Shown: positions 2,109-23,122 of the stretch, in pieces
Layout: every line of letters starts with the position of its first letter
How positions within the stretch are numbered: position 1 is the stretch's first letter
Origin: a virus
IMG/VR virus record: IMGVR_UViG_3300000553_000334
Location: 1 to 24,114 of that record
DNA length: 24,114 nt
Strand: one strand, 5' to 3'
The notes under the pieces: generated by a model
What the model saw: the letters and a program-made list of their open reading frames with translations, nothing else
The model's database searches: none
Told to the model about the DNA's origin: nothing
Made by a program: the position numbers and the translations under genes

Positions 2109-5100
2109 ATGGGCGGTTTTTTCAAATCATTGCTAAGTCTTGCGGTCATTATCACCGCGGCATACTTTACTGGCGGCGCTACATTGGCCTATGAAATGGC
2201 CGCTACATTTGCCGTTTCGATGGTGGTGTCTCGCATCTTTGCCCCCAACGTTCCGCAATCTCAACAGAACAACATTCGCCAGCAAGTTCCGCCCGACCCA
2301 ACCGCTGGCATCCCTTTGGTTTACGGCGACGCCTTCACCGGGGCGCGTTTCGTTGATGCGGTCTTGACCACCGACCAAACAAAAATGTATTACGTCATGG
2401 CGATTTCGTGCATTTCGCCCAACGGTCAATTTTTCTATGACACGACAAAGTTTTATTATCAAGACCGCCTGATTACGTTTGACAGCACCGACCAAACCAA
2501 AGTCGTTAGCTTGACCGATGCGGCTGGCAACGTGGACACCACCATCAGCGGCCATTTGTATATTGCGCTTTACACATCCAGCGCCACGGGAACGATTACG
2601 CCCGTAAACACATCGAATCTGCCATCGGCCATCATGTCCACGGCCAACGGCGTTCCATCGGGCCAACAATGGGCATCGAGCGGTCGTCAAATGAACGGCA
2701 CAGCGTTTGCGGTCGTCACCTTGGTCTATAACGCCAATTCCGCGGGAACGACAAGCCTTCAACCCATCACCTTCCACGTCAGTCATTATTTGAATGGCAC
2801 AGGTTGCGCGAAACCCGGTGATGTTTGGTATGACTACCTTACAAATACCGTATACGGCGGCGCGATTGACCCGTCTTTTGTGGATTCGACATCGGCCACC
2901 GCGCTGAATACTTATTCGGACGTCTTGATTCCATACACCGATTACAACGGTTATTCTCAAACCATTCCGCGCTATCGGTTCAACGGCGTCTTGGATACCG
3001 GGCAAACCATCCTCAACAACGTGGACATCATGATGACTTGCTGCGATTGCTGGCAAGCCTACAATTCGCCAACAGGTTTATGGTCCGTGGTGATTAACCA
3101 AGTTATATCGCCATCTTTCAGCTTTGATGACACCAACATCATTGGCGCAATTACTGTCGGTGCATTGGACATCACCCAACAAGCCAACCAAGTCGAGGCC
3201 AAGTTCAACGATGCCACGAACCGCGACCAACCCGGCTATGTGAATTTACAAACCCCGAGCGGTTTGCTGTATCCCAACGAACCCGTCAACAAATACACGG
3301 TTTCTTATGACCTGATAAATTCCAGCGTCACCGCCCAATACCTTGCAAACCGTGTTTTGGAACAAAACCGCCAAGACTTGATTGTCAGTTTTGAATCAAC
3401 CTATGCCGGGATTCAAGTTCAAGCTGGCGATGTCGTCACCGTCACCAATTCAAATTACGGTTGGACCAATCAGCAATTCCGCGTGACGCAAGTCAAGGAA
3501 ATCGCGCAAGCCGATGGCACTTTGTCGGCTTCATTCCAAATGAATGCCTACAATCCGGCGGTCTACGCCACGGGCAACATCACGCAATTCACGCCCACGC
3601 CCAACAGCGGCTTGGCAAATCCGCAATACTTTTCGGCGCTGTCAGCGCCCACGGTTACCAGCACAAGCCCAACGGCCACCATCCCGTCGTTCAATGTGGC
3701 TTGCACTATTCCCGCCAGCGGCCAAGTCACCGAAGTCACGTTGTTTTATACGACCTATTCAAGCCCATCCGCATCCCAATGGGTGGCATGGGGTTCGCAA
3801 ACATCGTCCAATTCGTTGGCATTCACGCCATCGTCCACGGTGTCGTTCATCGATATTAGTTTGCCGACCCAAACTTATTACTTTGCATTCATTGTCTCGA
3901 ACAACAACAGTTCGTCACTTTTGTCGCCTTTGTCGGCATCTTTGAATTGGAACCCAAACCCGACAACGTCGGCGGTGGCTGGCACGTTCTTGGGTACGTT
4001 TTCGCCCGTTGTTACGCAAGTGCCACGAACTGGCGGCGTCACGCCCGTTTTCACAGGGATTGTTCCAAAACTTTACGGTTCGGCTGCTGGCGGCGGAATT
4101 GACTTTGTTACATCGCAAACCGACACCGATTCAGCTTTTGTGAATAACACTTGGCGCATTGGCGGTTCGGCCACGACAGGTTATGGCGACATCACCACCA
4201 CGGGCGGCTTAACCCTTGGTTCAATCACCGATGGCGGCACATACGCGCAATGGGCATCCGTCACGGCCATGTCGTCGTCCCCCGCGTTGCTTAACGTTCC
4301 AATTCGCTACAAATCGGCATTGGGCGTCATTACTCAAGCGGCCACGGCCAGCACTCAATTTATCTTTTTGGACCCCGGCCCACAGGGAACCAGCGGTTCA
4401 AACGGCAATCAATACGCCACGGTTTATTTGTATCAATGGAACACCACGACGCCTTCCAACCCGTCTGGCACGTCGTCCTATAACTGGTCCACGGGCGTCA
4501 ATTCGTCTTATACCGGAACGGGCGGTTGGTCAACGACTATTCCGACAAACCCCGGCACACCGTTGATTCAGCTTTGGACCGCGGCCATTCAAATCGTTGC
4601 GGTTGGCGGCACGTCCACTACATCGGTAAGTTGGGCCAGCGGTTATTCAATTTCGGCTTTGACGCTGAACGGCGCTAATGGTGCAAACGGAACAAACGGT
4701 TCACCCGGCGCAAATGGCTTGCAAACTGCATCGCCTACCGTTTACCAATGGGCAATCACCATCCCAAGCGGTCCGACGGGTTCATCAACCTACACTTGGG
4801 CAAGTGCATCGTTTACGCCTACCCCAAGCGGCTGGACGCAAACACCCGGTGCATCGCCAAGTCCCGGTTTCACTTTGTGGGCGGCAAAGGTCAACATTTC
4901 TGATTCGGCCACGGCCACCACAACTTCAATCAATTGGACGCTGGCAAGCATTCTTGGCGCTGGTTATGCCGGAACAAACGGCTCAAATGGAACAAACGGT
5001 ACAAATGGCACAAACGGAACGAACGGCATCAATGGCACTCGAACCGCAGTCATCACCATGTATCAATGGGCGGCGTCTGCTCCGTCTTTGTTCCCGTCCG

Positions 5101-6551
5101 GCACATCAACCTACACTTGGGCAAATGGAACGTTTACCGCGCCAGCAACGCCCAATGGCTGGACAATTTACCCCGGCGCACCCGTGGCGGGTTACATCCT
5201 TTACGCCACCGACATGGTTTACGCTGACACCAGCACCAGCGCAACATCGTCGATTGTTTGGTCATCCACAATTGCTTACCCAAGCGGCGCGGCCGGAACA
5301 AACGGCGCTAATGGTTCACCCGGCGCACCCGGCACAAACGGAACCAATGGCACGAACGGATTAAACGGAACCCGCACAGCGTTCTTGCAGCTTTACCAAT
5401 GGGCATACAGCACCCCCACGGTGTTTCCAAGTGGTTCATCGACATATACATGGTCAAACGGAAGTTATAACCTGCCAAGTTCGCCCAACGGTTGGACATT
5501 GCTGCCCGGCGCACCCGTTGTCGGTTATACGCTGTACGCTTGCGCGGTCAGTTATGCGGACACCAACACCACGTCCACTTCAACGGTCGGCTGGACCACT
5601 TCCACGGCTTACGCCTTGGGCGCATCTGGCACAAATGGCGCAAATGGAACAAACGGCACGAACGGGACAAACGGCACAAATGGTATTGATGGATTGTCGG
5701 CTCGGATTGCTTACGCCGTTTCCAATTCATCGTCGCTGAGTTCAAGCCCTTCAACCTATACGACCACAGGCGCTGGCGCTTTTCCACCCTACAACACATG
5801 GGGCGGCGCTGAAACATGGCAAGCCACACCTGCAACGTATGGCGCTGGACAAGCCCTATTCCAAACAAACGGCATATATAACCCCGGCACATCCCAAACG
5901 GTTTGGACCGCGCCTTATTTGTCGAATTTGAAAGTCGGTTCGCTGTCGGCCATCACCGCTAACACGGGCAATCTGACGGTCACAGGCACATTCCAAGCAA
6001 ACACCGCCGCAATCAGCGGCACGTCCATGACGGGTTCGGGTATGTATCTGGACCAAACTGGTGACTTTGCATTAGGCAATTCCAGCACCAACATTTCGTT
6101 CAATGGTTCGCAAATGACCTTGAACGGGAACGTGGTTGCTACCAACAACATCAATTCAAATGCGGTAACAAACATTTTAGGCAACTCAACTGCTGGCAGC
6201 GGCACTCTTACGACCACGCCAACCACTTTTGTTTCTTTGCCTTTTACAACTTCCGGCGGTAATGTTGTTGTGACACTTAGCGCCATTGCCACGTTGCAAA
6301 ACACATCCTTATCATCCATTAGCGATGAAATTGTAGTGTCGGTTTATAGAAATTCAACTTTATTGTATTCGGCTGGCATTAACATGAATGCTCAACCTAG
6401 TCAATCTACGTCATCAGTTCCCGGAGCAACTTTTGTTGACAACCCGCCATCAGGAACCAATACTTACGTTTTTAAAGCCAACAGTATCTACGGCTCATAT
6501 CCTTTTACTATTAGTGGATGTTATTTAGTTTTGCAAGAATTTAAGCGGTAA
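2109..6551 (+). CDS. Central tail fibre / host-specificity protein (J-like) with collagen-like modules
   Basis: This 1480-residue protein has a hydrophobic N-terminus (residues about 5-40), then a J-like hub region. It includes a stretch around residues 420-490 (RVLEQNRQDLIVSFESTYAG, then VQAGDVVTVTN) typical of the phage-tail_3 / tip attachment family. A fibronectin-III-like segment follows at about 505-620. Residues about 768-1197 hold four related modules of about 105 residues, separated by Gly-Xaa-Asn runs. The last about 130 residues form a beta-rich tip ending in YLVLQEFKR, like trimeric fibre head domains. Such proteins sit at the tail tip and contact the host receptor. The tip region has looser codon use than the body, which suggests domain exchange. 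Confidence 0.85.
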   Translation: MGGFFKSLLSLAVIITAAYFTGGATLAYEMAATFAVSMVVSRIFAPNVPQSQQNNIRQQVPPDPTAGIPLVYGDAFTGARFVDAVLTTDQTKMYYVMAISCISPNGQFFYDTTKFYYQDRLITFDSTDQTKVVSLTDAAGNVDTTISGHLYIALYTSSATGTITPVNTSNLPSAIMSTANGVPSGQQWASSGRQMNGTAFAVVTLVYNANSAGTTSLQPITFHVSHYLNGTGCAKPGDVWYDYLTNTVYGGAIDPSFVDSTSATALNTYSDVLIPYTDYNGYSQTIPRYRFNGVLDTGQTILNNVDIMMTCCDCWQAYNSPTGLWSVVINQVISPSFSFDDTNIIGAITVGALDITQQANQVEAKFNDATNRDQPGYVNLQTPSGLLYPNEPVNKYTVSYDLINSSVTAQYLANRVLEQNRQDLIVSFESTYAGIQVQAGDVVTVTNSNYGWTNQQFRVTQVKEIAQADGTLSASFQMNAYNPAVYATGNITQFTPTPNSGLANPQYFSALSAPTVTSTSPTATIPSFNVACTIPASGQVTEVTLFYTTYSSPSASQWVAWGSQTSSNSLAFTPSSTVSFIDISLPTQTYYFAFIVSNNNSSSLLSPLSASLNWNPNPTTSAVAGTFLGTFSPVVTQVPRTGGVTPVFTGIVPKLYGSAAGGGIDFVTSQTDTDSAFVNNTWRIGGSATTGYGDITTTGGLTLGSITDGGTYAQWASVTAMSSSPALLNVPIRYKSALGVITQAATASTQFIFLDPGPQGTSGSNGNQYATVYLYQWNTTTPSNPSGTSSYNWSTGVNSSYTGTGGWSTTIPTNPGTPLIQLWTAAIQIVAVGGTSTTSVSWASGYSISALTLNGANGANGTNGSPGANGLQTASPTVYQWAITIPSGPTGSSTYTWASASFTPTPSGWTQTPGASPSPGFTLWAAKVNISDSATATTTSINWTLASILGAGYAGTNGSNGTNGTNGTNGTNGINGTRTAVITMYQWAASAPSLFPSGTSTYTWANGTFTAPATPNGWTIYPGAPVAGYILYATDMVYADTSTSATSSIVWSSTIAYPSGAAGTNGANGSPGAPGTNGTNGTNGLNGTRTAFLQLYQWAYSTPTVFPSGSSTYTWSNGSYNLPSSPNGWTLLPGAPVVGYTLYACAVSYADTNTTSTSTVGWTTSTAYALGASGTNGANGTNGTNGTNGTNGIDGLSARIAYAVSNSSSLSSSPSTYTTTGAGAFPPYNTWGGAETWQATPATYGAGQALFQTNGIYNPGTSQTVWTAPYLSNLKVGSLSAITANTGNLTVTGTFQANTAAISGTSMTGSGMYLDQTGDFALGNSSTNISFNGSQMTLNGNVVATNNINSNAVTNILGNSTAGSGTLTTTPTTFVSLPFTTSGGNVVVTLSAIATLQNTSLSSISDEIVVSVYRNSTLLYSAGINMNAQPSQSTSSVPGATFVDNPPSGTNTYVFKANSIYGSYPFTISGCYLVLQEFKR
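4411..5700 (+). repeat. Four tandem fibre modules separated by Gly-Thr-Asn collagen-like runs
   Basis: Within the fibre gene the modules start near 4411, 4726, 5041 and 5371. Each shares YQWA, S-T-Y-T-W, GWT, PGAP and a final W, and each is preceded or followed by repeated GTN/GAN triplets (about 4672-4713, 4972-5038, 5296-5370, 5626-5691). At the DNA level the triplet runs are near-repeats of aacggcacaaatgg. They are expected to fold as short collagen-like triple helices joining globular modules. They also offer homology for expansion, contraction or swapping of modules. Confidence 0.8.
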
Positions 6552-12636: not shown

Positions 12637-13266
12637 TCAAATCATAAGCAAAGATTGGATTTTTTGTTCCAGTTCTTGCAAAAATAATTTGACTTCAGTT
12701 TCTAATTCGGCCACATACACCGGGTCAAACGGGACGCGCTGAATGTAAAGCTGCAATCGTTCTGGAACTCGCGGGTCATACGAAACAAAATCCACCCATT
12801 TTCGTCCGGTACAGGCCATTTGCCATTGCATTTGGTCATGATACTTTTTAGGGTATTTTTTGTTGATGATTGTCTCGAAGTGATTGGCCGAATTCGGACA
12901 CTTGATTTCTATCGCGCCATCATCCCCGACAAGGCCATCAGGCGAAGCGCCAGCGCGTTCAATTGTTGGGTGGCATATATAGCCCACTTCATCGACCATC
13001 ACGTCCTTGGCTTGCTCATACGCGGCCCGAGCAAATGGTTCTTGCATCGTTCCCCATTTCATGGCGTCGTTGGTAAAAGATTCTTCAACCGTCCCGGTCA
13101 ATCTTTCGCAAAGCAATTGAGACAAATAATTGGCGCGGGATGTGGAATAACCCGATTTGGTTTTGGCTACGATGTCCGAAATGCGCGAAGCCGTGACGTT
13201 GCCGCAACGAATTTGCTTCCATTCATCAGTCCCTTGAATCACTTTTGAGTAATCTGCGACATCCAT
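12637..13266 (-). CDS. YqaJ-family viral recombinase / exonuclease
   Basis: This 209-residue protein is of the lambda-exonuclease-like YqaJ family, a 5'-3' double-strand exonuclease that makes single strands for the annealing protein. The N-terminal GTDEWKQIRCGNVTAS (12-27) is the family start. WGTMQEPFAR (71-80) gives Glu76. The PD-(D/E)XK core is SPDG (Asp110) with EIK (Glu120, Lys122), followed by HDQMQWQMACTG (143-154). Start 13266 has GGAGTGGAAAAG directly upstream and is preferred to an ATG at 13311. It overlaps the HNH gene by 41 bases and is the last gene of the leftward operon with the ERF annealing protein. Confidence 0.9.
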   Translation of the reverse strand: MDVADYSKVIQGTDEWKQIRCGNVTASRISDIVAKTKSGYSTSRANYLSQLLCERLTGTVEESFTNDAMKWGTMQEPFARAAYEQAKDVMVDEVGYICHPTIERAGASPDGLVGDDGAIEIKCPNSANHFETIINKKYPKKYHDQMQWQMACTGRKWVDFVSYDPRVPERLQLYIQRVPFDPVYVAELETEVKLFLQELEQKIQSLLMI

Positions 13267-13888
13267 CTTTTCCACTCCATGTTTTGTTTCGTCGTTTGTC
13301 AAAATAACCATCCACCCATTTCACAATGGTTTGCTTGCTGACGCCATATTGATTGGCCGCATCTTGCAATGATTCATAAATTTTTCCATCAATTTCCCAA
13401 CGCCAAGCAATTCGTTTGTTTCTTTGTTGTTCGGATGCGGTGGCCCATCGACAATTTTCTTTTGAATAATTGCCATTGACATCGATGCGGTCCAACGATG
13501 TCCCTTTGGGTTTTTCCCCCATGTCCTTATAAAACGCTTCAAACGAATCTATCCATTGTTGGCAAATTTTGATGCCACGGCCACCATAAGACGGGTAATC
13601 TTTGCTTTTTTCGTTCAAGCAACGGTCTTTCATTGATGTCCATGTGTTGTATGTCCCGGTGTTTTTCATCCCGTGTTTTGTGTTCAAAACTTTCATGGAT
13701 TCAAAAGCGCACCGTGGACATTTTGTTTTTTTGCCGTTGCGGATTCTTGTTGCTTCATACACCCCAATGTTTCCGCAATCGCATTGACATTGCCAAAGGA
13801 CGTGATTGTCTTTGGTTCTTTCTTTCAATTCGCAAATAAATTTCAACATCTTGGCCTTTGCTGTAATGGTTTGCCAATCGTAAACCAT
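13226..13888 (-). CDS. Homing-type HNH endonuclease inserted between ERF and YqaJ genes
   Basis: This 220-residue protein starts from ATG 13888. ATG 13849, with AAAGG upstream, is an alternative. It has an N-terminal zinc-ribbon-like part (WQCQCDCGN and KCPRC, residues 32-60). The nuclease core follows: YNTWTSMKDRC, YGGRGIKIC, and SLDRIDVNGNYSKENCRWAT (131-150), which carries the D-R-I/N-Y/N-C-RW pattern of phage HNH/AP2-type homing endonucleases. The C-terminal SLQDAANQYGVSKQTIVKW (173-191) resembles a NUMOD-type helix-turn-helix used for DNA contact. Such genes spread by cutting intergenic sites in uninfected relatives. It is wedged into the recombination operon and overlaps the yqaJ start. 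Confidence 0.85.
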   Translation of the reverse strand: MVYDWQTITAKAKMLKFICELKERTKDNHVLWQCQCDCGNIGVYEATRIRNGKKTKCPRCAFESMKVLNTKHGMKNTGTYNTWTSMKDRCLNEKSKDYPSYGGRGIKICQQWIDSFEAFYKDMGEKPKGTSLDRIDVNGNYSKENCRWATASEQQRNKRIAWRWEIDGKIYESLQDAANQYGVSKQTIVKWVDGYFDKRRNKTWSGKDGCRRLLKSDSRD

Positions 13889-13891
13889 TAC
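13863..13891. repeat. 10-bp inverted repeat over the HNH start
   Basis: GTAATGGTTT (13863-13872) and AAACCATTAC (13882-13891) are perfect complements around a 9-base loop. On the minus strand the first ATG of the endonuclease gene (13888) lies inside one arm, and the second ATG with its AAAGG site lies just after the other arm. In RNA, the hairpin could hide the first start codon. Confidence 0.6.
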
Positions 13892-13907
13892 GGCAATGTA
13901 GACAAGA

Positions 13908-14507
13908 TTAAATTGCTGCTTTTTTGCGGTCTTTAAGGTCGAGAATTTGGTTTTGAAGCTGGATGTTACCGCCAGCAAACTTTAGCGCGGCAAAGTAAGC
14001 GGTTTTCAGTTCATCGTGCGTTCGGGCGTTTTCCATATTGGCAAGATATGGCGTCAAGTCGGCCAATGATGGGCCACCGCTGACTTGGTGGTTGTCGATT
14101 TCCACATCAATGGCTTCCGTCGGGATGCTGAACGCTTGGAAACAGGCGTATTTGTAAGCCGTGGACATTGCTTTGTTGGTGGCTTTGTCGGACGAATCCA
14201 TTGCTTCACCAAACGTTTTTACGATGTGTTTTGACCCATCTTCCACGCTGACGAAATCGAATTCGGCTTCCACGGTGACGTAAAAAAGAACCTTATTGCT
14301 GGCGCTGACCCGTTCCGCACAGGTTCGGTTTAAAACACGGGGCAAAATGCAAAGCCCATGTTTTGGCAGCAATTCGGCCAAGGCGTTATAAACGTCATCG
14401 ATGCCCCGAAAATGATAGATTGACCCGGAATCCGTCTTGCGGTTTTTGGCGATTCCACGCACCGACAAAGCGGCTTGAACGTCGCTGATTGCTTTATAGA
14501 CTTTCAT
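13908..14507 (-). CDS. erf: ERF-family single-strand DNA annealing protein
   Basis: This 199-residue protein has clear ERF-superfamily motifs: IYHFRGIDDVYNALAELLPKHGL (30-52), LFYVTVEAEFDFVSVEDGS (74-92) and GEAMDSSDKATNKAMSTAYKYA (100-121), followed by SIPTE. These proteins form rings on single-stranded DNA and anneal complementary strands in phage recombination and end circularisation, together with the exonuclease encoded downstream. Start 14507 is chosen over 14531 because it forms an ATGA overlap with the upstream stop. The C-terminal 50 residues are variable. Its natural partner YqaJ is now separated from it by the HNH gene. Confidence 0.9.
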   Translation of the reverse strand: MKVYKAISDVQAALSVRGIAKNRKTDSGSIYHFRGIDDVYNALAELLPKHGLCILPRVLNRTCAERVSASNKVLFYVTVEAEFDFVSVEDGSKHIVKTFGEAMDSSDKATNKAMSTAYKYACFQAFSIPTEAIDVEIDNHQVSGGPSLADLTPYLANMENARTHDELKTAYFAALKFAGGNIQLQNQILDLKDRKKAAI

Positions 14508-14722
14508 TTTTTGTAGAACTCCGATTCGCAAAGGTCATCCAAGCGCATGAAAGCGTCCATCAATGGGTCTTTTGTGGCCTTGACCACATCGGCGCTGGAT
14601 TGATTCAACAAGCTCATTGTGCTGGCGATAAGCTGTCGGGCCACGAATGGCGTGATGTCTGAATCTTCAATTTGCCGAAGTTGGCTTAAAACGCCATAAA
14701 GCGTTCGGTTTGTGTGGTCCAT
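14504..14722 (-). CDS. First gene of leftward operon, small hypothetical protein
   Basis: This 72-residue, helical and mildly acidic protein (VLSQLRQIEDSDITPFVARQ, QSSADVVKATKDPLMDAFM). ATG 14722 has AGGA seven bases upstream. A longer frame reaching 14872 would run through the divergent promoter and across the Cro-like gene. It is coupled to the ERF gene by ATGA. I do not recognise a family. The position at the head of an ERF/YqaJ operon suggests an accessory factor for recombination or host nuclease control, which is inference only. Confidence 0.6.
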   Translation of the reverse strand: MDHTNRTLYGVLSQLRQIEDSDITPFVARQLIASTMSLLNQSSADVVKATKDPLMDAFMRLDDLCESEFYKK

Positions 14723-14774: not shown

Positions 14775-14927
14775 ATGACAAAAGAAATTGCAATTAAATT
14801 GGCAGGTGGGTCGAACGCATTGGCGCGACTGTTGGGCATCACAAACGGCGCGGTTTCGCAATGGAAGGCCATTCCAAAGGGTCGGCTTTACGACTTGCGG
14901 AATTTGCGGCCAGAATGGTTTTATTGA
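14775..14927 (+). CDS. Cro/YdaS-like helix-turn-helix regulator
   Basis: This 50-residue protein begins MTKEIAIKLAGGSNALARLL. Residues about 11-31 (GGSNALARLLGITNGAVSQW) form a textbook helix-turn-helix, with the ALARLLG first helix and AVSQW recognition helix typical of YdaS/Cro-type regulators. The end IPKGRLYDLRNLRPEWF is also typical (YDLRNLRPE). It lies divergently from the recombination operon, directly beside the dyad at 14749-14773, exactly where a Cro protein would be encoded. No partner repressor gene is present next to it. It probably represses its own and the leftward promoter. Confidence 0.85.
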   Translation: MTKEIAIKLAGGSNALARLLGITNGAVSQWKAIPKGRLYDLRNLRPEWFY

Positions 14928-15036: not shown

Positions 15037-15837
15037 ATGGGCAAAAAAGTCGATATATGGATGCCGCTATATGTGGCCGATTACATTTCCGCAACTTCAC
15101 GGTTGACCACCGAACAACATGGCGCGTATTTGTTGTTATTGATGGACTACTGGAAGAACGGCGCGCCACCTGACAATGACCAAGTTTTAGCGCAAATAAC
15201 CAAGTTATCAAATGATGCTTGGAGTAATGCTAGGACTATGCTTGAGGGATTCTTTGACGTATGCGATGGGCATTGGTTCCAACATCGTTTGGAATCCGAA
15301 ATGGTCAAGGCCAATCACAATAAAACCGCCAACTCAAAGCGTGGAAAAGCTGGCGCTGCAGCAAGATGGGGTAAGAAAGATGCTTCAAGCATACCTGACG
15401 CATCCTTGGAGGTATGCTTGGCTGATAGCACATCACCATCACCTACACCTTCAAATAATAAAAGAAAAGAAAAAGCCCCTAGCGTGGCTTGTCCTGATTC
15501 TGTAACTCAACAAGTTTGGGATGATTGGATGACCGTTCGCAAAGGAAAAGGCGCAAAAACGCTGACGCAAACAGGTTGGACAAAATTTTTAAACCAAGTC
15601 GATAAAGCTGGTTGGACTATTGAACAAGCAATAAGTCATTGCTGCATGAAAAATTGGGTAAGTTTTGAAGCTGCATGGATTGAACAAAAATTAACAAATT
15701 CAGAAAAACGTCAAAATCACATGGCCCAATTGACACGCGGTTTGTCAACACCAAAACTAAAACCGCAACCATTCTGGGCTAAGTCAACAACCATTCTGGA
15801 GGAAATCCCAAATGTGGAATCAAAACGACTTTTGTGA
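15037..15837 (+). CDS. DUF1376 (YdaU-like) replication initiation protein, O-like
   Basis: This 266-residue protein has the DUF1376 domain in its N-terminal 100 residues. The signature is WMPLYVADYISATSRLTTEQHGAYLLLL (8-35), followed by LEGFF and a basic KRGKAGAAARWGKK segment (101-114). A polar linker (about 115-150) precedes a C-terminal domain with W..F...V.KAGW. In many phages DUF1376 proteins occupy the place of lambda O and are followed by a helicase-loader gene, as here. It likely binds the origin, and a repeat cluster lies within its own linker-coding DNA. The next gene overlaps it by 26 bases. Confidence 0.8.
   Translation: MGKKVDIWMPLYVADYISATSRLTTEQHGAYLLLLMDYWKNGAPPDNDQVLAQITKLSNDAWSNARTMLEGFFDVCDGHWFQHRLESEMVKANHNKTANSKRGKAGAAARWGKKDASSIPDASLEVCLADSTSPSPTPSNNKRKEKAPSVACPDSVTQQVWDDWMTVRKGKGAKTLTQTGWTKFLNQVDKAGWTIEQAISHCCMKNWVSFEAAWIEQKLTNSEKRQNHMAQLTRGLSTPKLKPQPFWAKSTTILEEIPNVESKRLL
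15379..15475. other. Candidate replication origin inside the O-like gene
   Basis: CAAGCATACC (15386-15395) and GGTATGCTTG (15411-15420) are a perfect 10-bp inverted repeat. A third related half-site, ATGCTTC (15380-15386), makes ATGCTT/AAGCAT around C86. This cluster is followed by an AT- and purine-rich stretch (15451-15474) that could unwind. Lambdoid origins lie in the middle of gene O with this order, iterons then AT-rich DNA. The position coincides with the linker between protein domains. Confidence 0.45.
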
Positions 15838-16189
15838 TGCCGACGCTGGATTTGATTATATTTTCACCAAAATGAACGCTATTTATGGCGCAAGGTTTGA
15901 ATCAAACTGGCAAAACGTCGATGTGGACATTGTGCGCGAGGTTTGGAAAGAACAATTGGGTCGGTTTTTGACCTATAAGCCAAGCATGGACCACGCCATT
16001 CGAATGTTGAAAGGCGAATTCCCGCCCAGCGCCATCACATTTCGCGAATACTGCAACACAGGCCCGGACATTCCGGAAAAACCAGTTCCGCAAATCGAAC
16101 GGCAATCGACGGTTCACGAACAAATCAAAGCCGCCGAAGCCAAAGCAAAATTGCGGGAATTGGTCCAACAAATGAAAATGAAGGTATGA
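15812..16189 (+). CDS. Putative helicase-loader-like protein (lambda P position)
   Basis: This 125-residue protein starts inside the O-like gene (26-base overlap). The middle (VREVWKEQLGRFLTYKPSMDHAIRMLKGEFPPSAITFREYC) has the W..L..F, A...L and FPP..  F...C pattern seen in phage replication protein P and related short proteins that bring the host DnaB helicase to the origin. The C-terminus is a charged helix (IKAAEAKAKLRELVQQ). It is much shorter than lambda P (233 residues), so it may be only the N-terminal module of that family. Position after the O-like gene supports the call. Confidence 0.55.
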   Translation: MWNQNDFCDADAGFDYIFTKMNAIYGARFESNWQNVDVDIVREVWKEQLGRFLTYKPSMDHAIRMLKGEFPPSAITFREYCNTGPDIPEKPVPQIERQSTVHEQIKAAEAKAKLRELVQQMKMKV

Positions 16190-20504: not shown

Positions 20505-21178
20505 TGAAAGTAATTCTGCATGACCCAAAACAGGCGCATGAATTTTTATTAAACATTTGGCCGAAAATCAAAGACGCATTATCTAACAACAGGCGATTGG
20601 AAATGATAATACAAGACGAAAAACGGACGAATGACCAAAATGCGTTATTTCACGCAATCATTCACCAGATTGCCAAAGAAGCCGAACATATGGGCGCAAG
20701 ATGGGACACCGAAAGCTGGAAGCGGTTTTTGGTGGACCAATTTTCAAGTGAAGTTTTCCACAAATCTGGCCGTGTTGTTCCAAGCCTAGACAATCAGCGC
20801 GTGGTACAGCTTGGACTACAAACCAGAGACTTCAGCAAACAAGAAGCCACCGAATTCACAGAATGGTTGCTTGCATGGGCCGCAAACGCGGGAATTGATG
20901 TTGTCATGCAGGCGCCGGAATTGAAGGATTCATATTCCACCTACATGCAAAGCAAGAATTTTCCGGTTGAAGCCATTTTCAAGGACATCAGCGAGGTCAA
21001 AAGTGCCTTGCGCGACCGCAAAGTCACATTTACCGGCAACATCCGATTGACTGGACCAGTGGAGCAATTCCAAGATCGAGTGAGGATGCGATCCATTGAC
21101 GGGGAAGCATTACCCAATGGCTCGGTACCCAAATGGACGGAGATCATCGTGCGAGACCAAATTAGAGATCAAGAGTGA
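20504..21178 (+). CDS. ninB: NinB-family recombination protein fused to a foreign C-terminal segment
   Basis: Residues 1-131 are a typical NinB: KRTNDQNALFHAIIHQIAKE (40-59), WKRFLVDQF (72-80) and FTEWLLAWAANAGI (118-131). NinB proteins bind single-stranded DNA and act in phage recombination, and usually end about ten residues later. Here the frame continues in register for another 93 residues with unrelated sequence (TFTGNIRLTGPVEQFQDRVR, then DGEALPNGSVPKWTEIIVRD). That segment has a different codon style and ends in an overlap (GAGTGACC) with the RelA/SpoT gene. The added part is therefore the C-terminus of a foreign protein, of no family I recognise, joined to NinB at about 20888-20905. 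Confidence 0.75.
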   Translation: MKVILHDPKQAHEFLLNIWPKIKDALSNNRRLEMIIQDEKRTNDQNALFHAIIHQIAKEAEHMGARWDTESWKRFLVDQFSSEVFHKSGRVVPSLDNQRVVQLGLQTRDFSKQEATEFTEWLLAWAANAGIDVVMQAPELKDSYSTYMQSKNFPVEAIFKDISEVKSALRDRKVTFTGNIRLTGPVEQFQDRVRMRSIDGEALPNGSVPKWTEIIVRDQIRDQE

Positions 21179-22161
21179 CCGAAGCCGAATTCCGTGATCG
21201 ATGGCGGACTGAGCGCCCCATCTACGCGGCGTGGGGTGACTTCGTGCGGCAAAAAATCTGCGAGAGAGTTGGCGAGGTGGTGGCACCAGTGTCACTCGAC
21301 TACTTTTTGAAAGTCCCGGTCAAGCCAAGACTGAAAGAGGAAGCCACACTTGTAGACAAGGCCTTCCATCGGAAGAAGCCATACACCGATCCGTATGGTG
21401 ACATCACTGACAAGATCGGCATGCGCTTTGTCGTGCTGCTGACAACCGACATCACCACTATTTGCAATGCCCTTGAAGAATTGGGCACTTTTTGGACTCA
21501 CTCCAAGGATCGGGACTATGAAACTGAGCGGCTGGAAAAGCCTCTCGAATTTTCATACCAATCCATGCACTACGTCGTGCGTGCAAACTCCAATGTTCAG
21601 CATAACGGCATCATCATTCCAGCTGGCACGCCCTGTGAAATTCAAGTCCGCACGCTGTTGCAACATGCACATAGCGAACTGACCCACGACACCCTATATA
21701 AACCGAAAACAACGGCTCAGCCGGCGGTCAAACGCAAGATTGCAAAAAGCATGGCCCTAATTGAGGCCACTGATGAGTTCTTCACTCAGGCCATGGCGCA
21801 GCTGAAACATGCAACTGCGCCACAGACAGATTTGCTGACCGCCCTTGGTCAGCTCTACACAAGCGAGATTGGCATCGATCCCGAGGTCGAGAGATCGAAT
21901 CAGCTAGTGATCGACACCTTCGCAGACAGGCTCCCGGACAATCCGTCCACCACAATCGCGGATTACCTCAAAAACAATTCGTTCGTCTTCAACAAGATCA
22001 AAGAGAGGCGCACGGACAATCATTTCTACCGCCAGCCGCTATCAATGCTTGCCTACTATTTAGTGCATGCGATGCCTTCGCAGACCAAAGACCTTTGGCC
22101 GTTGGAAGTCACTGACTTGGCCCAAGTATTCAGCGATCTGGGCAAGAAGTTCGAGCACTAA
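21175..22161 (+). CDS. RelA/SpoT-domain nucleotide pyrophosphokinase-like protein
   Basis: This 328-residue protein starts at GTG inside the upstream stop (GTGA overlap). The RelA/SpoT synthetase fold spans about residues 30-180: basic segment VKPRLKEEATLVDKAFHRKK (49-68), DITDKIGMRFVV (76-87), YQSMHYVV (128-135), EIQVRT (155-160) and HAHSELTHDTLYK (164-176). These match the synthetase core that transfers pyrophosphate from ATP to GDP/GTP, or in toxic relatives to other substrates. No HD hydrolase domain, TGS or ACT is present. Residues about 185-328 form a helical domain unknown to me. It might be an alarmone synthetase, or a toxin of the small-synthetase type whose partner would be the upstream gene, of which only the end survives. 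Confidence 0.75.
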   Translation: MTEAEFRDRWRTERPIYAAWGDFVRQKICERVGEVVAPVSLDYFLKVPVKPRLKEEATLVDKAFHRKKPYTDPYGDITDKIGMRFVVLLTTDITTICNALEELGTFWTHSKDRDYETERLEKPLEFSYQSMHYVVRANSNVQHNGIIIPAGTPCEIQVRTLLQHAHSELTHDTLYKPKTTAQPAVKRKIAKSMALIEATDEFFTQAMAQLKHATAPQTDLLTALGQLYTSEIGIDPEVERSNQLVIDTFADRLPDNPSTTIADYLKNNSFVFNKIKERRTDNHFYRQPLSMLAYYLVHAMPSQTKDLWPLEVTDLAQVFSDLGKKFEH

Positions 22162-22793
22162 CGCCCAACGCCAAAGGACCTTGCCAAAATGGCGTCAAAG
22201 GCCGCTTGCGCTACTGCCTTTGCAGATGACTGTTGCAAAGAAATCGCGCGAGCATTGGAAGCCTGCTCCGCGTATCGCTTCTGATGTTGATATGGAGCAA
22301 TCGGCAAGACGAGTTGAAATAGCTTGCCCTGAGAAATGTTTCGCATTGACGCACTGGTACCAGACGAAAGTGCTCCCAACTCTCGCCGAACATGACGCGA
22401 TTGGAAGAGAGCATGCATGTAAAGTGGTTCCACCTTCTCCGCCCATACAAAGCGCCATAACTTGTCTGGTAGCAACGTTTGACCGTTGGTGGCGTCAACA
22501 ATTGCAGTTGCGCCAACCAACTCCTCAGTATTGGCGCGAGAGAACAGCATGTCGCCCGCGCGAACCAAGTGAGACTGCGGCGGTTTGTAGCCATCTGGTG
22601 AGGGTTTACTTTCCGATTCGCGATACTGACCAGAAGTAGCGGCACTCACTTTAAGAATTCGATATGGCGAGCCATCTTCGGAACCTGCTTGCAGGTTTTT
22701 GCCACCTTCAAATCGGCTTACAAAGTCTGAAACCTTGCGCGTCGGCCACCCCTTCGGATTCGTCGCCGGATCGCCAAACATGTCCAGAAAACT
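22158..22793 (-). pseudogene. C-terminal half of a type I restriction specificity subunit (HsdS), truncated
   Basis: About 211 residues begin at the junction with SFLDMFGDPATNPKGWP, the usual entry to the second target-recognition half of HsdS. They continue through RILKVSAATSGQ, HLVRAGDMLFSRANTEELVG and the C-terminal PYQHQKRYAEQA region. A whole HsdS has about 400 residues, two recognition domains and central coils; only the distal half is here. HsdS selects the DNA site for a type I restriction-modification complex. The frame runs on into phage DNA to an ATG at 22892, but this N-terminus is antisense phage sequence. No hsdM or hsdR is visible. Its stop (22158-22160) overlaps the RelA/SpoT stop. 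Confidence 0.75.
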
Positions 22794-23122
22794 ACCCGAA
22801 ACGTAATTACATCCGTTCCAAGCGCCTATTGATGGCCGTGGCAACGCTAAATTGTCAACATTGCGGACAATACGGCGAAACGCAAGCCGCACACACCAAT
22901 TGGGGATTTGGAAAAGGTCGTTCCATCAAAGCCGACGACAACATGGTCGCCGCACTTTGTCAGACTTGCCATTCTATGATTGACCAAGGTTCAAGACTAT
23001 CAAAAGCCCAAAGAATGGAAATTTGGGAAAATGCACACATCAAAACCGTAAAAAAACTACAATTGCTTGGATTGTGGCCTAATGATGTGAAATTACCGGA
23101 AATGAACGATGCACTACGCTAA
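22664..23122 (+). CDS. HNH nuclease (DUF968-like), original start lost to the insertion
   Basis: The recognisable protein begins at about 22796 with NYIRSKRLLMAVATLNCQHCG. CQHCG, then AAHTNWG, KADDN and ALCQTCHSMIDQGSRL show a zinc-bound HNH fold (Cys64, Cys67, His77, Cys99, Cys102, His103 when numbered from 22664). Family members normally start a few residues before NY. Here the region upstream is the antisense of hsdS, and the frame is open through it to ATG 22664, which adds 43 foreign residues. ATG 22832 is an internal alternative that would lose the NYIRSKRLL part. Phages encode such nucleases in the ninB-region recombination cassette. It overlaps the next gene by 14 bases. Confidence 0.7.
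   Translation: MASHLRNLLAGFCHLQIGLQSLKPCASATPSDSSPDRQTCPENYPKRNYIRSKRLLMAVATLNCQHCGQYGETQAAHTNWGFGKGRSIKADDNMVAALCQTCHSMIDQGSRLSKAQRMEIWENAHIKTVKKLQLLGLWPNDVKLPEMNDALR

Follow-up and report, generated by a model that had tools for sequence, protein, structure and literature searches.

The question raised by this locus is whether a phage DUF1376 gene carries a replication origin within its own coding sequence. The window analyzed here is the whole stretch of 24,114 nucleotides from IMG/VR virus record IMGVR_UViG_3300000553_000334. An earlier note on this DNA had placed a candidate origin of the lambda type at 15379-15475, inside the DUF1376 gene. The features of the locus are as follows.

14775 to 14927, plus strand: cro-like repressor gene (PF14549, P22_Cro, E=8e-11), upstream of the DUF1376 gene and in the same direction
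15037 to 15837, plus strand: DUF1376 gene, 266 aa, a predicted initiator with an N-terminal winged helix, a linker and a C-terminal O/DnaT-like primosomal domain
15214 to 15246, plus strand: iteron block R1, with the half-site ATGCTYGG in direct orientation at 15215, 15227 and 15238 (spacing 12 and 11 bp), in codons 59-69
15379 to 15420, plus strand: iteron block R2, half-sites at 15380 (+), 15388 (-), 15400 (-, the imperfect GCATCC) and 15414 (+)
15433 to 15453, plus strand: tandem hexanucleotide-like tract, TCACCA TCACCT ACACCT TCA, coding for SPSPTPS and appearing as (TCACCT)n in relatives
15454 to 15475, plus strand: A-rich purine stretch, a candidate unwinding element, AT-rich in relatives although its letters are not conserved
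15812 to 16189, plus strand: downstream gene that overlaps the DUF1376 gene and weakly matches a P-like helicase loader (phrog_109, E=1.7e-4)

DUF1376 (PF07120) was matched by residues 8-88 of the window protein with E=1.5e-22 and 80.2 bits against a gathering score of 30.1. It was the only domain found in the Pfam search, which returned neither a lambda O DNA-binding family nor a replisome organizer family of the Phage_rep_org_N type, and the NCBIfam search gave no match. In PHROG the protein matched phage primosomal protein families, with the match to an O-like initiation family confined to the C-terminal part (aa 105-249). The earlier description of an O-like protein therefore holds for the C-terminal part but not for the DNA-binding part, where Pfam recognizes DUF1376 and no lambda O homologue. 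Residues 117-147 were predicted by AF2 to be disordered, with pLDDT below 50, in agreement with the claim that the repeats lie in a linker-coding region. The N-terminal domain was modeled with a pLDDT of 86.5 and contains helices at 13-19, 25-41, 48-55 and 59-72 and strands at 74-76 and 79-81, an order of elements predicted to form a winged helix. Helix 59-72 would occupy the position of the recognition helix, and R1 would thus lie within its codons. Fold matches of this domain in the PDB were weak (best E 0.06) and were mostly MarR-type winged helices, along with the DnaD N-domain. A Foldseek search of predicted viral structures matched the replisome-organizer N-domain of C9WB95 from Streptococcus phage Abc2 (probability 1.0, E 0.01), and N-domain entries of the Lin1244/Lin1753-like type were also among the predicted-structure matches. 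A sequence search for solved structures returned none for DUF1376 relatives, and a literature search found no study on the function of DUF1376. The protein is predicted, with near certainty, to be a phage DNA replication initiator.

The inverted repeat described in the earlier note is perfect, but it is 11 bp long rather than 10, with arms CAAGCATACCT (15386-15396) and AGGTATGCTTG (15410-15420) separated by a spacer of 13; both arms fall within R2. Among perfect inverted repeats with spacers up to 40 it is the longest in the 24-kb window. Since shuffling the DUF1376 gene synonymously gave an equally long one in 49 of 2000 trials (about 2.5%), the repeat by itself is moderately significant, and the window alone is weak proof. 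The third half-site (ATGCTT at 15380-15385) and the AT-rich purine tract (the A-rich stretch at 15454-15475) are both present. Three further half-site copies, at 15215, 15227 and 15238, had been missed. Of the 22 copies of ATGCTT in the window, five lie inside the 205 bp from 15215 to 15419, where 0.19 are expected; the probability of such a cluster is about 2e-4 with the number of windows allowed for. R2, the hexanucleotide tract and the purine stretch do lie at 15379-15475, the extent first given for the origin region, but a second block, R1, lies upstream of it inside the DUF1376 domain. A scan of the window for repeat clusters of any kind did not pick out this place, which ranked 62nd of 1194, and was dominated by the collagen-like tail gene. 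A tail-type protein of 1480 aa with collagen-like GTN repeats (PF01391) is encoded at 2109-6551 (+).

Relatives were then compared. From 58 fetched loci, 33 distinct genes with the N-domain of the window gene were aligned by codon, and synonymous differences were counted against expectation per gene pair and per amino acid. Synonymous changes were nearly absent from two stretches, codons 59-69 and 113-139, and were near or above expectation (a ratio of 1) in the rest of the gene. In a set of 24 less redundant genes of this family (family A), observed over expected values were 0.45 for R1 (codons 59-69, p about 5e-3), 0.29 for R2 (codons 113-128, p<=5e-5) and 0.21 for the tract (codons 129-139, p<=5e-5), against 1.14 outside these three parts. 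R1 in the family reads GATGCTTGGAGYAATGCTCGGACTATGCTTGA, with three half-sites in direct orientation at spacings of 12 and 11 bp, and R2 reads AATGCTCCAAGCATAgttGAAGCATACTCGGAGGTATGCTCGG, four half-sites in both orientations followed by (TCACCT)n; both blocks carry one word, ATGCTYGG. The perfect palindrome was confined to the nearest relatives of the window and was ruled out as the functional unit; the conserved unit is the half-site. Of the earlier expectation that the repeats would be conserved despite protein divergence, the half-sites under synonymous constraint bear out one part, but the perfect palindrome was not kept. Absence of the repeats from close relatives, which would have spoken against an origin, was not what the alignment gave, the half-sites being present and conserved there.

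A Pseudomonas-type subfamily, whose N-domains are about 40% identical to that of the window, served as an independent test. The dips fall at the same two places, with observed over expected values of 0.38 (R1), 0.36 (R2) and 0.08 (tract) against 1.14 elsewhere, and the word is a different one, CGTTGAACG instead of ATGCTYGG, with about three copies at a 12-bp period in R1. The pattern in family A and in the Pseudomonas-type subfamily suggests that the half-sites inside the gene are preserved by selection on the DNA. Enteric YdaU departs from it in part and counts against an origin of this kind: R1 was unconstrained and R2 weakly constrained (0.55), with the tract strongly constrained. In enteric YdaU (L140), synonymous variation also falls near zero at codons 295-322, just before the end of ydaU, which may reflect either an overlap with ydaV or another signal.

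The two blocks share their words beyond what coding explains. Sharing of 12-mers between R1 and R2 exceeded that in synonymous shuffles in 17 of 56 non-redundant genes at p<0.05, and Fisher's statistic was 253 on 112 df compared with 45-70 for five control pairings. More distantly related genes carry other words in the two blocks, namely ACGTTGGACAG/ACGTTGAAC in L150, AACGAATCG in L152 and AACGAACGTT in L151, with R1 of L151 placed further upstream in the gene. Inspection by eye also shows R1 and R2 of L150-L152 sharing a word, there altered to ACGTTG or AACGAATCG. Word classes, which were defined after inspection of the sequences, track the N-domain: one class was found in 66 of 66 genes of a single N-domain cluster spread over seven C-domain clusters, and genes with a common C-domain cluster carry differing words. 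DNA of the window and L016 is 100% identical at codons 175-215 and about 40-48% identical before them, and L014 and L040 have 92-98% DNA identity as far as the tract and are unrelated beyond it; the junctions of these C-domain swaps lie directly behind the tract. Because the word follows the N-domain and not the C-domain, the site array and the N-domain make up one module. In L057 and L058 the C-domain of the window's family is fused to an unrelated N-domain through a TCA/TCT-rich linker; a Pfam search of the L058 N-domain gave no match, and these two genes probably represent another initiator family with the same C-domain.

Widely differing DUF1376 genes have a tandem hexanucleotide tract immediately after the iterons, as (TCACCT)n, (GATACA)n, (GAAGAG)n, (AACCAG)n, (CCTAAC)n and (TCACAT)n. 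A period-6 test was run across the families, and for the window gene itself it gave p=0.11. In the Pseudomonas-type subfamily, two hexanucleotide tracts interchange behind identical iterons. Slippage in a disordered linker could contribute to such tracts; their low synonymous variation across genes and their fixed position nevertheless call for a function. The tracts at 15433-15453 of the window and in L137, L141, L150-L154, L333 and L336 code for SP, DT, NQ, PN or SH dipeptides. In 43 of 56 genes the least stable 60-bp segment of the gene had its start within codons 105-150, and in the window gene at codon 204 instead; low duplex stability has other causes too, among them the codons of the linker.

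The gene order at the locus is cro, initiator and P-like gene, in which cro is clear and the P-like match weak. At the place of the downstream gene, relatives carry DnaC-like, DnaB-like or DnaA-like genes. Cumulative GC skew, suggested earlier as a check, gave a mixed result that weakly favors an origin at the gene. Its minimum in the window is at 13891, more than 1 kb upstream of the DUF1376 gene and next to a change of transcription direction, but in six of eight relatives no more than 2 kb separate the gene from the minimum of the detrended skew. Skew was set aside as weak proof of an origin, since transcription direction shapes it as well. Other genes in the window include those for the YqaJ exonuclease and the ERF annealing protein of recombination (12637-14531, -) and, adjoining a NinB gene, a gene with a RelA/SpoT domain (21175-22161, +; PF04607, 3e-13; phrog_32462), for which an alarmone-related function is possible. 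An ORF of 244 aa at 22158-22892 (-) resembles by eye the target-recognition part of a type I restriction specificity subunit and had no Pfam match.

Taken together, the comparative evidence strongly favors the proposal of a candidate origin in the DUF1376 gene, in the form of an origin-type array of predicted initiator-binding sites within the gene for the initiator. This reading is favored because blocks of synonymous constraint occur in two independent subfamilies, iteron words are common to R1 and R2, the array is co-inherited with the predicted DNA-binding domain, duplex stability is predicted to be low directly behind the array in most genes, and the gene order runs from cro through the initiator to a loader-like gene.

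The half-sites might instead be operators through which the DUF1376 protein or another regulator controls transcription through its own gene, with replication starting elsewhere. Clustered half-sites of a winged-helix protein would fit a regulator too, the PDB fold neighbors are mostly of the MarR regulator type, and cro is adjacent. However, the sites are 180-380 bp into the coding sequence, a search of the plus strand there gave no promoter-like match, most relatives have an unstable tract behind the sites, and the protein has a primosomal, O/DnaT-like C-domain, so that operators are considered improbable. The swapping of C-domains just behind the tract raises the question of whether the conserved stretch is a recombination joint, kept or homogenized by recombination and not by binding. 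This is very unlikely, as R1 falls within the domain and is flanked on both sides by high synonymous divergence, and the linker word differs among genes with a common C-domain (L016 and L049 versus the window and L005). Because the word differs between genes that share a C-domain, the linker is not the common homology in those swaps.

Another possibility is that what is under selection is not the DNA sites but a second reading frame, an RNA structure or the linker peptide, and for this the window offers a 97-aa ORF at 15212-15505 that overlaps in the +1 frame and a palindrome that could form an RNA hairpin. The ORF was rejected, since the +1 frame is closed by one to five stops in 28 of 29 family members outside the window's close group. 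The palindrome is not conserved and R1 consists of direct repeats; the linker is disordered, and its codons are conserved, not its residues alone. Such selection is hardly credible as the source of the pattern.

An intragenic origin bound by the DUF1376 protein has its closest functional parallel in lambda, whose origin lies inside the initiator gene between the parts for DNA binding and partner binding, with an AT-rich unwinding region after the iterons and with cro on the upstream side and the loader on the downstream side (PMC7466680, PMC5043065). In the window, likewise, R2 and its predicted initiator sites lie in the linker between the predicted DNA-binding and partner-binding domains, with cro upstream and a weakly matched P-like loader downstream. 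Unlike lambda, the N-domain is DUF1376, with no O-type DNA-binding domain found by Pfam, the half-sites are 11-12 bp apart in two clusters about 130 bp from each other instead of four consecutive 19-bp imperfect palindromes, and a tandem hexanucleotide tract is present. The window origin would thus work like lambda O/ori and yet stand outside the O family, since the O-type domain and the 19-bp palindromic iterons are absent, and the most fitting label for it is a DUF1376-type intragenic origin. Several Gram-positive phage replisome organizers also have the origin inside the organizer gene. With those of the Phage_rep_org_N and Lin1244/Lin1753-like types the window N-domain may share a fold, by the match to C9WB95 in predicted structures, but no Pfam match was obtained and the hosts, iterons and C-domains differ. 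In iteron plasmid origins a replicon-specific initiator binds direct repeats that have nearly helical spacing and adjoin an unwinding region (PMC5043065); the array in the window, with direct repeats in R1 and a candidate unwinding region behind R2, is similar, but the sites in the window are initiator coding sequence and in part codons of the initiator's own predicted recognition helix. The Rac prophage of E. coli K-12 also encodes a DUF1376 protein, YdaU. A DnaT-like C-domain is present in L138 and in the Rac-SA53 allele, which has a GATACA tract as well; enteric ydaU differs in its unconstrained R1. Rac contains oriJ, an active origin that is normally kept repressed (PMC3945230). The MG1655 record has no origin feature at ydaU, and a literature search did not find a paper that places oriJ.

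From the half-site clusters, the synonymous constraint, the common word and its co-inheritance with the N-domain, all read from sequence, we infer N-domain binding, looping, unwinding, helicase loading and origin activity. It is highly probable that this is an intragenic phage origin at which the DUF1376 N-domain binds R1 and R2, the tract opens and the C-domain passes the site on to the loader. The winged-helix N-domain would bind the ATGCTYGG half-sites in R1 and R2, and the two bound blocks may loop out the intervening DNA. The bound array would strain and destabilize the downstream tract at 15433-15475, the C-terminal O/DnaT-like domain would hand over to the helicase loader encoded next, and the loader would put the replicative helicase on the opened strand. 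A bolder proposal, offered tentatively and rather doubtful as yet, is that origins with DUF1376 initiators form a separate type, in which the recognition helix is partly encoded by its own target sites, so that a change in one is a change in the other, and in which the interchangeable hexanucleotide tract might be an element for unwinding or single-strand loading, like DnaA-trios in role and different from them.

These results give DUF1376, which is still of unknown function in Pfam, a testable job. They also predict the start site of replication for many phages and prophages, uncultured as well as isolated, several of whose DUF1376 genes are annotated as hypothetical proteins only. The two subfamilies, with differing words at the same places, would provide natural specificity swaps, and the hexanucleotide tract is a clear and widespread feature beside the iterons.
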